Of a stretch of DNA of 64,000 nt, positions 44,895 to 48,413 are shown in pieces. Each line of letters begins with the position of its first letter. Within the stretch, counting starts at the first letter, position 1. The position numbers and the translations under genes were made by a program. The notes beneath the pieces are model-generated. The model saw nothing but the letters and a program-made list of their open reading frames with translations, ran no database searches and was not told the DNA's origin. Origin of the DNA: Bacteroidetes bacterium ADurb.Bin217. Its GTDB lineage: Bacteria > Bacteroidota > Bacteroidia > Bacteroidales > UBA1715. The DNA lies in NCBI GenBank assembly GCA_002069975.1, contig MWCJ01000001.1, positions 1 through 64,000 of the forward strand, in the 5' to 3' direction.

Positions 44895-44912
44895 TTATCA
44901 AATACAATAAAC

Positions 44913-44944
44913 AAAAAAAGCTGCTTTACAAAGCAGCTTTTTTT
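44913..44944. terminator. Bidirectional terminator between the giant gene and trpD
   Basis: The core stem GCTGCTT/AAGCAGC is extended by A7/T7 to 14 bp (44913-44926 against 44931-44944). Strong on the plus strand 18 nt after the giant gene, and usable by minus-strand trp transcripts. Confidence 0.9.
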
Positions 44945-45016
44945 GTTTATTGTAAGTTTGAAAACATTGTTGTCCAATAAAAAATAGAAACCGTATAAGA
45001 GTATTTTAATTTTTGT

Positions 45017-45207: not shown

Positions 45208-46200
45208 CTATTGTATAGATTGTAATTTACGTAATACACATAATGCTCTACCACTTTCCAATGATTCGCGAGCTTGAAACATACATTCCTCTATAGTTTG
45301 ATGTTGACGTATACTTTTAATACCAATAGCTGCATTTGCTAACACAACTTCTGTTTGTGCTTGAGTTGCAGAATTTTGTAATATATTCATACAAATACGA
45401 ACAGCATCATCTACAGATGAACCACCGTCTATTTGATTGGGAGTTGTAGGAGAACAATTGAAGTCGAACGGTGTTACTATAGTTTCAAAATTATTAGACA
45501 TAAGCTTTACTTCACCGGTCAATGAAATTTCATCATACCCATCGAGTGCATGAATAATAATAAACTGTTTGTTGTTGTTTTGAAATAGATATTTGTAAAT
45601 TCTACCAACTTCTAAATTATACACACCAACCGATTGGGCCGCAGGGTTTGCCGGATTAACTAACGGGCCTGCCATATTAAAAAATGTTCGAACTATTAAT
45701 TGCTTACGAATAGGAGCAACTTCTTTCATAGTAGGATGGAATAAGGGGGCATGCATATAACACATGCCGGCTTTTTCCATATCGCTTTGTAATTTTGAAG
45801 AGTCGGTACTGAACGTATATCCTAATGACTCCATAAGATTTGATGATCCGCAGCCAGATGAAACGCCATAATTACCATGTTTGGCAACATGAATTCCTGC
45901 ACCTGCAACAACAAACGATGCAATAGTAGAAATATTAAAAGTGTTTTTACCATCACCACCTGTACCACACATATCTATAGTATCATACCCGTCTAAATTA
46001 ACTTTAATACAATTTTCTTTCAATGCTTCAACAAAACCGTTCATTTCATCAACGGTAATTGATCGCATAGAAAATACAGTAAGGAATGATGCTATTTGAA
46101 TTTCGTTATATTTTTTTAAACTAATATTTTGCAAAATTTCTTTTGCTTGTTCTTTCGTAAGTGTTTGATACGAATACAAATAATGAAGAATATCTTTCAT
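45208..46200 (-). CDS. trpD: Anthranilate phosphoribosyltransferase
   Basis: Second step of Trp synthesis: anthranilate plus PRPP to phosphoribosylanthranilate. MCGTGGDGKNTFNIST (about 77-92) is the PRPP loop, and KHGNYGVSSGCGSSN (107-121) the second conserved block. 330 residues is normal. Last gene of the trpEGD set, 12 nt after trpG. No trpC, F, B or A follows; the next gene is convergent. Confidence 0.96.
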   Translation of the reverse strand: MKDILHYLYSYQTLTKEQAKEILQNISLKKYNEIQIASFLTVFSMRSITVDEMNGFVEALKENCIKVNLDGYDTIDMCGTGGDGKNTFNISTIASFVVAGAGIHVAKHGNYGVSSGCGSSNLMESLGYTFSTDSSKLQSDMEKAGMCYMHAPLFHPTMKEVAPIRKQLIVRTFFNMAGPLVNPANPAAQSVGVYNLEVGRIYKYLFQNNNKQFIIIHALDGYDEISLTGEVKLMSNNFETIVTPFDFNCSPTTPNQIDGGSSVDDAVRICMNILQNSATQAQTEVVLANAAIGIKSIRQHQTIEECMFQARESLESGRALCVLRKLQSIQ

Positions 46201-46212
46201 GTAAGTTATGTG

Positions 46213-46782
46213 TTAAATGTCTAACCAGTTTTTAATTAGTTGTTTACCATCGGGTGTCAATACCGATTCGGGGTGGTATTGTACGCCTCGTACTGAATAT
46301 GTTCTATGTTTTACACTCATGATTTCACCTAGTTCGTCTACGGAAGTAACTTCAAAACAATCTGGTAATGTTTCTTTTACAGCATTCCACGAATGGTATC
46401 TACCTGCCAAAAATGGTGATGAAAACCCTTTATATAATTCGTCGCTTCCAACAATAGTAAGCTCCGATGCTACACCATGATATACCTGTGGCATATTGTA
46501 TATTTCTCCGCCATATGCTTCAACTATTGCTTGATGTCCTAAACAAACTCCTAAAATGTTTTTACTGCTTCCATATGTAGCAATTACTTGTGGCATTATG
46601 CCTGCTTCCGAAGGAATTCCCGGACCGGGCGACAAAAGTATTTTATCGTATTTTGCTACATCTTCAATCGATATTTCGTTGTTTCTGTATACATCTACAG
46701 TGTCTGTAGTTAATTCTTTAATATAATGAATAAGATTATAGGTAAAAGAATCGTAATTGTCGAGTACTAATATATGAGCCAT
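46213..46782 (-). CDS. trpG: Anthranilate synthase, glutamine amidotransferase component
   Basis: Class I glutaminase delivering ammonia to TrpE. The catalytic triad is C80 (GVCLGHQAI), H170 and E172 (VQYHPES). LLSPGPGIPSE is the conserved oxyanion-region segment. 189 residues. It lies 12 nt after trpE, and the pairing identifies it as TrpG, although a PabA role in folate synthesis could be shared, as in other bacteria. Confidence 0.95.
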   Translation of the reverse strand: MAHILVLDNYDSFTYNLIHYIKELTTDTVDVYRNNEISIEDVAKYDKILLSPGPGIPSEAGIMPQVIATYGSSKNILGVCLGHQAIVEAYGGEIYNMPQVYHGVASELTIVGSDELYKGFSSPFLAGRYHSWNAVKETLPDCFEVTSVDELGEIMSVKHRTYSVRGVQYHPESVLTPDGKQLIKNWLDI

Positions 46783-46794
46783 AATAAGTATGTA

Positions 46795-48204
46795 TTATAA
46801 TTGTTCTGCGTTATGAATTGCACTTTTAAGAGCAGCTAATTTATTATTTATTTCTTGTAATTCATTTTCTTCAATAGACTTTGCTACTACACCGGCACCT
46901 GCTTGGTAATATAATGTATTGTCTTTACTCAAAAATGAACGAATCATTATAGCTTGATTTACATTGCCATGAATGTCTATGTAACCTAAGCTGCCGCCAT
47001 AAAAGCCTCTGCCTTGGTTTTCATATGTGTCTATAAGTTCCATAGCTCTGTATTTTGGAGCCCCCGAAAGTGTTCCTGCCGGAAAAGTATCTGCAATTAA
47101 TTGTACGGGATTGGTATGTTCGTGTAATTGTGCCGATACTTTAGAAACCATATGTAACACATGCGAAAAATATTGAATTTCTCTATATTTTTCAACCGTA
47201 ACAGTATGACCGTTTCGGCTTAAATCGTTACGAGCCAAATCTACCAGCATGATATGTTCCGAATTTTCTTTTGGGTCGGCAGCAAGTTGTTTTGCAAGTT
47301 CTGCATCTTTAATGTCGTCGCCTGTTCTCCGAAATGTTCCGGCAATTGGATTAATCGTTGCTTTATTGTCGCGAATAACTATCTGAGATTCAGGTGAAGA
47401 GCCGAAAATTTTATATGTTCCAAAATCAAAAAAGAATAAATACGGAGAAGGATTTATGGAGCGCAATGTCCTATATACATTAAATTCATCACCAACAAAT
47501 GATTGCGAAAATTGCCGCGATAAAACTATTTGAATTACGTCGCCCCTAAAGCAATGTTTTTTTCCATGTGCTATTACATCAATAAATTCTTCGTCGGTAA
47601 AATTTGAAGATTCTGTACCAACAGTTTTAAATGAATAGGTGCAAAAATTCTTATTTAGAATGATAGATTCTATTTCGTCAATGGTGCTTGATTCGTTATT
47701 GTATATGTTTTCAATAATATGCATCTCACTTTTAAAGTGATTAAAGGCTATAATATAACGATAAAAATTAAACACAATTTCGGGAATGTTGTTTTCGGGT
47801 TTTGTTGGTGTATGTAATTGAATAGTTTCAAAATACTTAACAGCATCATACGAATTATACCCAAAAAAACCTTCTACTCGTAATGGAATATTTGCTTTTC
47901 GAATGGTAAACGAAGTAAAGAATTCGTGCATGTGTTGTGGTACAAATTCTTTTGATGCGGGAATGTTTAATTCTTCAAACGATTTGTCGGGATATTGTTT
48001 GTACAAAACCGAATTGTGAACCGAAATTCGAGCAATAGGTTCAAAACAAACTATTGAATAACTGTTTTCGTCGCCATTAAAATCGGTGCTTTCTAGTAGG
48101 AGTGGATTAGAAAACTTATCGCGAATTTTTAAATAAACATTTACCGGCGTTAATGTGTCTGCGAGTATTGTTTTTGAATGAGTTCTAATTTCAAAGGGTT
48201 TCAT
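46795..48204 (-). CDS. trpE: Anthranilate synthase component I
   Basis: Converts chorismate and ammonia to anthranilate, the committed step of Trp synthesis. 469 residues. LLES at 36-39 is the tryptophan feedback-binding motif, so enzyme activity is probably Trp-inhibited. The C-terminal chorismate-binding block includes IAGTFRRT, HIMLVDLARNDLSR and PAGTLSGAPKYRAMELI. The gene lies behind a leader-peptide attenuator, so both transcription and activity respond to Trp. Confidence 0.96.
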   Translation of the reverse strand: MKPFEIRTHSKTILADTLTPVNVYLKIRDKFSNPLLLESTDFNGDENSYSIVCFEPIARISVHNSVLYKQYPDKSFEELNIPASKEFVPQHMHEFFTSFTIRKANIPLRVEGFFGYNSYDAVKYFETIQLHTPTKPENNIPEIVFNFYRYIIAFNHFKSEMHIIENIYNNESSTIDEIESIILNKNFCTYSFKTVGTESSNFTDEEFIDVIAHGKKHCFRGDVIQIVLSRQFSQSFVGDEFNVYRTLRSINPSPYLFFFDFGTYKIFGSSPESQIVIRDNKATINPIAGTFRRTGDDIKDAELAKQLAADPKENSEHIMLVDLARNDLSRNGHTVTVEKYREIQYFSHVLHMVSKVSAQLHEHTNPVQLIADTFPAGTLSGAPKYRAMELIDTYENQGRGFYGGSLGYIDIHGNVNQAIMIRSFLSKDNTLYYQAGAGVVAKSIEENELQEINNKLAALKSAIHNAEQL

Positions 48205-48240
48205 ATTTGTTTATTTATTTGTGATTGTAAAATTGTATGT

Positions 48241-48276
48241 AAAAAAAAAGCTTGCCCCATGTGAGGCAAGCTTTTT
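48241..48276 (-). terminator. trp attenuator terminator hairpin
   Basis: A perfect 12-bp stem (48265-48276 against 48245-48256) has an 8-base loop and is followed on the minus strand by U9 (48241-48249, partly in the stem). It stands 36 nt before the trpE start and 33 nt after the leader stop codon. Confidence 0.93.
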
Positions 48277-48341
48277 ATATTATATTGGTATATTACGGTA
48301 TACGAGTAGCTATCTCACGATTAAAATTTGTAAGCGCCACC
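48261..48341 (-). promoter_or_regulatory. trp leader antiterminator and Trp-codon control region
   Basis: Read on the minus strand. Region 2, GTGAGATAGCT (48318-48308), covers the leader's last codons and stop. It can pair with region 3, AGCTTGCCTCAC (48272-48261), through GTGAG/CTCAC and AGCT/AGCT, which would block the terminator. Region 1, GGTGGC in the Trp codons (48341-48336), can pair with GCTACT (48310-48305), allowing two G-U pairs. A ribosome stalled on Trp codons frees region 2 for antitermination; one that finishes the leader masks it and the terminator forms. Confidence 0.8.
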
Positions 48342-48366
48342 ACCATATATGTAATTGTTGTACCAT
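48310..48366 (-). CDS. trpL: trp operon leader peptide with three consecutive Trp codons
   Basis: ATG at 48366 to TAG at 48310 encodes MVQQLHIWWWRLQILIVR, 18 residues. Three adjacent TGG codons occupy 48345-48337. An AAGGA sequence lies 6 nt before the ATG, a rare good ribosome site for this phylum. It sits between a promoter and a terminator directly ahead of trpE. This is the classic arrangement for ribosome-mediated attenuation: Trp-tRNA shortage stalls translation at the WWW triplet. The peptide itself probably has no other role. Confidence 0.9.
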   Translation of the reverse strand: MVQQLHIWWWRLQILIVR

Positions 48367-48382
48367 TGTAAATCCTTTTTTG

Positions 48383-48413
48383 CAAATATTATATTTTTTT
48401 TTATAAAAGTCAA
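48383..48413 (-). promoter_or_regulatory. Promoter of the trp operon
   Basis: On the minus strand TTG (48413-48411) and AATATTTG (48390-48383) are 20 nt apart, one mismatch from the TAnnTTTG consensus. The expected transcript start is a few bases downstream, about 10 nt before the leader ATG. Confidence 0.65.

Follow-up and report, generated by a model that had tools for sequence, protein, structure and literature searches.

A trp leader of the Bacteroid-trp kind ahead of trpEGD in Bacteroidetes bacterium ADurb.Bin217 and its counterparts in the order

The DNA analyzed here, hereafter the window, is a 64,000-nt stretch of contig MWCJ01000001.1 from Bacteroidetes bacterium ADurb.Bin217, and it carries a short trpEGD operon on the minus strand. 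The trpE gene for anthranilate synthase component I occupies positions 46795 to 48204 with its ATG start codon at 48204, and is followed by trpG (anthranilate synthase component II, 46213-46782, TIGR00566 over the cut-off) and by trpD (anthranilate phosphoribosyltransferase, 45208-46200, TIGR01245 over the cut-off), which closes the operon. Between trpD and a convergent gene for a 2923-aa PKD-like surface protein lies a long symmetric terminator-like hairpin (44905-44952), which is probably a two-way terminator. The LLES motif that the initial annotation had pointed out in TrpE was found at residues 36-39, where it aligns with LLES of solved bacterial anthranilate synthases. In TrpE, LLES is an established component of the Trp feedback site, and judging from the sequence such a site is plausible in this protein. 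The trp pathway of the genome is split, with trpC-trpF on another contig near a chorismate-mutase-like gene and trpB-trpA on a third, next to a hisH-like gene.

Toward trpE on the minus strand, a putative promoter (TTGACT ... TAATATTTG, 48385-48413), proposed from its match to the consensus, is followed by a leader ORF at 48310-48366. This ORF starts with ATG at 48366, ends with TAG at 48310 and encodes an 18-aa peptide, MVQQLHIWWWRLQILIVR, in which three consecutive Trp codons occupy 48345-48337; a mini-ORF of this WW or WWW type is kept in relatives. Region 2 (48308-48318, minus strand) has the form GTGAG-AT-AGCT, with GTGAG at 48318-48314 and AGCT at 48311-48308, and the leader stop codon lies between the two segments and overlaps them. 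According to folding and covariation, region 2 has two alternative partners, region 3 in an antiterminator or the leader in a 1:2 helix. Region 3 (48261-48276, minus strand), supported by the same two lines of evidence, comprises the left terminator arm together with a portion of the loop; here AGCTTGCCTCAC pairs with region 2, the segments being AGCT at 48272-48269 and CTCAC at 48265-48261. The intrinsic terminator (48241-48276, minus strand), recognized by sequence, folding and covariation, begins after a spacer of 33 nt from the leader ORF and has a 14-pair stem (48276-48245), a loop of 4 and nine U residues at 48249-48241. The perfect 12-bp stem claimed by the initial annotation corresponds to 12 contiguous Watson-Crick pairs, which are extended by a U.G and a C-G pair. 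The rest of the anatomy it had described, namely an 18-codon WWW ORF, a stop codon inside region 2, a terminator with U9 and then trpE, was likewise confirmed in the sequence, and the GTGAG/CTCAC and AGCT/AGCT segments that it proposed for the antiterminator are present and form an exclusive helix that covaries in relatives. A short ORF with adjacent Trp codons is thus located before the first trp gene, and an intrinsic terminator separates it from the first structural gene.

The region 48204-48413 folds at -41.1 kcal/mol (z = -3.96), and none of 200 dinucleotide shuffles folded as low. When we searched for mini-ORFs with adjacent Trp codons and a strong terminator within 130 nt downstream, the 64 kb window gave one WW mini-ORF with a strong terminator, which is the trp leader, and 20 Markov-randomised windows of the same composition gave none. 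Examination of both the trpCF and the trpBA loci of the genome detected no second WW leader with a terminator; therefore, only the first steps of the pathway, encoded by trpEGD, would be under an attenuator of this kind.

To assess how widely this layout is kept, we sought TrpE in 99 genomes, drawn from the genus, the family and the order. A close TrpE was found in 46 genomes, the window's own included, and each of them was examined upstream of the gene. In 45 of the 46 we observed, ahead of trpE or trpB, a mini-ORF of 11-26 codons with WW or WWW and a terminator after it. In the sole exception, G082, the contig starts about 815 nt before trpE. The 45 genomes contain 48 leaders, 28 directly ahead of trpE and 20 ahead of trpB; for most of the 28 this placement is positional, as the DNA retrieved includes no more than the opening trpE codons. 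Since the search itself required adjacent Trp codons, all 48 leaders have them by construction, and the evidential weight lies in the fact that nearly every trpE-bearing genome yields a leader at the right place. The initial annotation had named relatives without the Trp codons and the hairpin as evidence against its reading; both are carried by 45 of the 46.

This result also bears on the possibility that the terminator is controlled by a Trp-binding protein or a repressor, of the TRAP or TrpR type, and that the WWW ORF is incidental. Certain other bacteria control their trp operons through proteins of these types. A search of the genome gave no match to Trp_repressor (PF01371) or to TrpBP (PF02081, TRAP), although control genomes gave matches to both, and the leader does not class as a TRAP leader. 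Moreover, a protein switch would not require the WW codons and the stop position that are kept in 45 of 46 relatives. We therefore regard control by such a protein as highly improbable compared with control by translation of the leader.

The promoter is the weakest part of the leader anatomy in the window, and its match is imperfect. What the initial annotation called a recognisable promoter corresponds to a TTGACT...TAATAT pair; it agrees with the sigma-70 consensus at 9 of 12 positions, such sites were no commoner than in shuffles, and the Bacteroidota -7 box TAnnTTTG is inexact, reading TAataTTTG with one extra base. Of the 48 leaders, 30 have the exact box in the 80 nt before their ATG, and each of these 30 belongs to a genome other than the window's. 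A Shine-Dalgarno-like AAGGA is located at 48373-48377, 6 nt before the leader ATG of the window; the same scan flagged no other leader among the 48, and we leave this AAGGA uninterpreted. Since the leaders mostly have no Shine-Dalgarno-like sequence, attenuation would need a translation start independent of such a sequence, together with a ribosome that paces RNA polymerase.

To evaluate the helices, 46 leaders from outside the genus of the window were aligned, and they align well. In the terminator helix, 93.5% of the cells are paired, two-sided changes occur in 13 of 13 pairs, and the covariation score is 0.611 versus 0.269 in shuffles. The antiterminator helix is formed by the segment around the leader stop (consensus AGUCGUGAG) and the terminator loop with the upper right arm (CUCACGAC). 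Its cells are paired in 76.7%, and at most 39% when the helix is slid; 7 of its 8 pairs show two-sided changes, and its covariation score of 0.358 compares with 0.252 for shuffles and 0.06-0.15 for slid positions. Among the leaders this helix takes the forms GUGAG/CUCAC, GUAAG/CUUAC, UUCAGU/ACUGAA and UAGUUGCA/UGCAACUA. When the pairing of region 2 with its own terminator apex was compared with that of swapped apices, none of 5000 swaps was as good for all leaders, and none of 10000 when one leader per cluster was used. This comparison replaced per-leader p-values for the longest 2:3 duplex, which were dropped because they were weak and confounded by the terminator arms in the search range. 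The 1:2 helix is less well supported, with 61.8% paired. Covariation across related trpE leaders, suggested as a check by the initial annotation, thus revealed compensatory changes in both the terminator and the antiterminator helix. The exclusive antiterminator is in this way evident in the relatives, and in the window the helix is present but weak: its own 2:3 apex pairing is -7.7 kcal/mol versus a mean of -11.7 kcal/mol, and it ranks 16 of 31 against swapped apices, no better than a typical one.

Folding with a ribosome placed on the leader was performed with the 3′ edge of the ribosome assumed to be 15 nt past the first P-site base. With a ribosome on the first, second or third Trp codon and the RNA made up to CUCAC, the predicted probability of the antiterminator is 0.95. 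When no ribosome is present this probability is 0.00, region 2 is held by the leader, and only the terminator can form; a ribosome on the stop codon covers region 2, and again only the terminator forms. Comparison of the masked and the unmasked leader, which had been proposed earlier, therefore gave the predicted outcome, in that a ribosome at the Trp codons frees region 2 and one at the stop codon hides it. In all ribosome states the completed terminator prevails over the antiterminator, at about -23.2 kcal/mol for the finished RNA versus -8.6 kcal/mol for the 2:3 intermediate. Because of this large difference at equilibrium, antitermination would have to be kinetic, decided while RNA polymerase makes region 4.

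Conservation, covariation and ribosome-placed folding all support the reading given by the initial annotation. On the observed anatomy, its conservation and the covariation of the alternative helices in relatives, the element in the window is very probably an attenuator of the Bacteroid-trp type in which a ribosome governs transcription of the trpEGD operon, and ribosome stalling, kinetic competition and an effect on expression would be expected as follows. With ample charged tRNA-Trp, the leading ribosome would reach the stop codon and mask region 2, so that the 3:4 terminator forms and transcription ends ahead of trpE. With little charged tRNA-Trp, this ribosome would instead stall at the WWW codons and leave region 2 unoccupied. 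Through GUGAG/CUCAC and AGCU/AGCU, region 2 would then bind the left terminator arm and the loop ahead of synthesis of the right arm, which would allow transcription to proceed. If the leader is not translated, it would pair with region 2 (1:2), and the terminator would form.

The weak 2:3 pairing in the window, together with a score under the Rfam cut-off, would also fit a decayed leader, in which the ORF and the hairpin persist and regulation has been lost since the antiterminator is too weak. Nevertheless, all the elements are intact and both helices form, and G001, a relative of the same genus, keeps the same layout and a matching region 2/3 (TGTGAG/CTCACA) despite changes in the surrounding sequence. 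Decay is thus very improbable. For a functional attenuator, a 2:3 helix weaker than that of most relatives means that the dynamic range may be small.

A well-established leader of this logic is trpL of E. coli, which has adjacent Trp codons, four RNA regions and a stop codon that lets the finishing ribosome mask region 2. The window shares the attenuation logic with the enterobacterial family (Trp_leader, RF00513) and differs from it in having three Trp codons instead of two, in sequence, and in controlling only trpEGD; its score with RF00513 is 23.2 bits, below the gathering score of 41. The closer family is the Bacteroidete tryptophan peptide leader RNA (Bacteroid-trp, Rfam RF01692), described from Bacteroidetes by Weinberg et al. 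in 2010 (PMC2864571). RF01692 aligns from end to end (model positions 1-131) with 48393-48265 of the window; the score of 41.3 bits, with E 0.0014 when 401 nt were scanned, is below the gathering score of 49 for this family.

Scans with RNA families address a third explanation, direct control at the RNA level by a T-box or another riboswitch that senses tRNA or Trp, as might be thought from a structured 5′ leader and terminator before an amino-acid operon. No T-box or riboswitch family reached its gathering score in the window, and the top match at E up to 10 was Bacteroid-trp, which is a peptide leader; a riboswitch also leaves the ORF with Trp codons unexplained. We consider this extremely unlikely and the least probable of the explanations.

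Bacteroid-trp and the leader of the window agree in phylum, in the position ahead of trp genes and in the WW or WWW peptide. They differ in that the aligned RF01692 model stops within the left terminator arm and so does not cover the terminator in full; the covariation of the two exclusive helices is shown separately, in the present analysis. Across the 99 relatives, RF01692 gave a match in 42 at E up to 1 and exceeded its cut-off in 6, including G007 and G009 of the same family as the window genome (52.8 and 57.5). We then used a covariance model, R1, made from the aligned leaders with the terminator included, G007 and G009 in and the genus of the window left out. R1 found the window leader (48366-48240) with an E value of 3.3e-17 at 71 bits, the next match in the whole genome being 33.8 bits, and homology to members over the RF01692 cut-off in the same family of genomes is thereby indicated. 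The two models, with the terminator (R1) and as given by Rfam, score the window at 71 and 41 bits, respectively. A phylum scan with R1 gave many low-scoring matches, many of them partial to the terminator end of the model, and only the high, full-length ones are meaningful.

The leader of the window is thus a divergent, previously unlisted member of the Bacteroid-trp type, and the kind itself is already known. The statement of the initial annotation that it appears little described in this lineage overrates its novelty, as the class was described in 2010 and has also been noted in Flavobacterium psychrophilum. A 2019 paper places Bacteroid-trp ahead of the trp operon of that species (PMC6414381), and a 2021 transcriptome study infers leader-peptide attenuation before its amino-acid operons (PMC9723704). 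The likeness to the window is attenuation by a leader peptide before amino-acid operons in a Bacteroidota species; the difference is that F. psychrophilum belongs to another lineage of the phylum and that the evidence there, as far as the available parts of both papers go, is transcriptome mapping and homology, with no test of mechanism (PMC9723704, PMC6414381). A literature search of partial coverage found no paper testing the mechanism in Bacteroidota.

In three genomes, two complete WW or WWW leaders with terminators were found in series, about 100-350 nt before trpE (L055 in G018, L072 in G068 and L085 in G092). These genomes belong to three different families, and no obvious second promoter is seen between the units. 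For mgtCBR of Salmonella, attenuators in tandem have been reported (PMC3641672), and no report of tandem trp attenuators was found in the literature covered. Tentatively, and with somewhat less than even confidence, the trp attenuator of the order can be viewed as a regulatory unit that is retained when its operon context is altered: it stays with trpEGD, the first committed steps, when the pathway is split, as in the window's genome, is ahead of trpB elsewhere, and is doubled in series in three lineages, which could give two-step control in a tandem form that is perhaps undescribed.

The RF01692 cut-off under-detects the class in this order, being exceeded in 6 of 99 genomes, compared with a layout present in 45 of the 46 that bear trpE. 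These results indicate that trp attenuation by a translated leader appears to be nearly universal in the members of the order with a close trpE.
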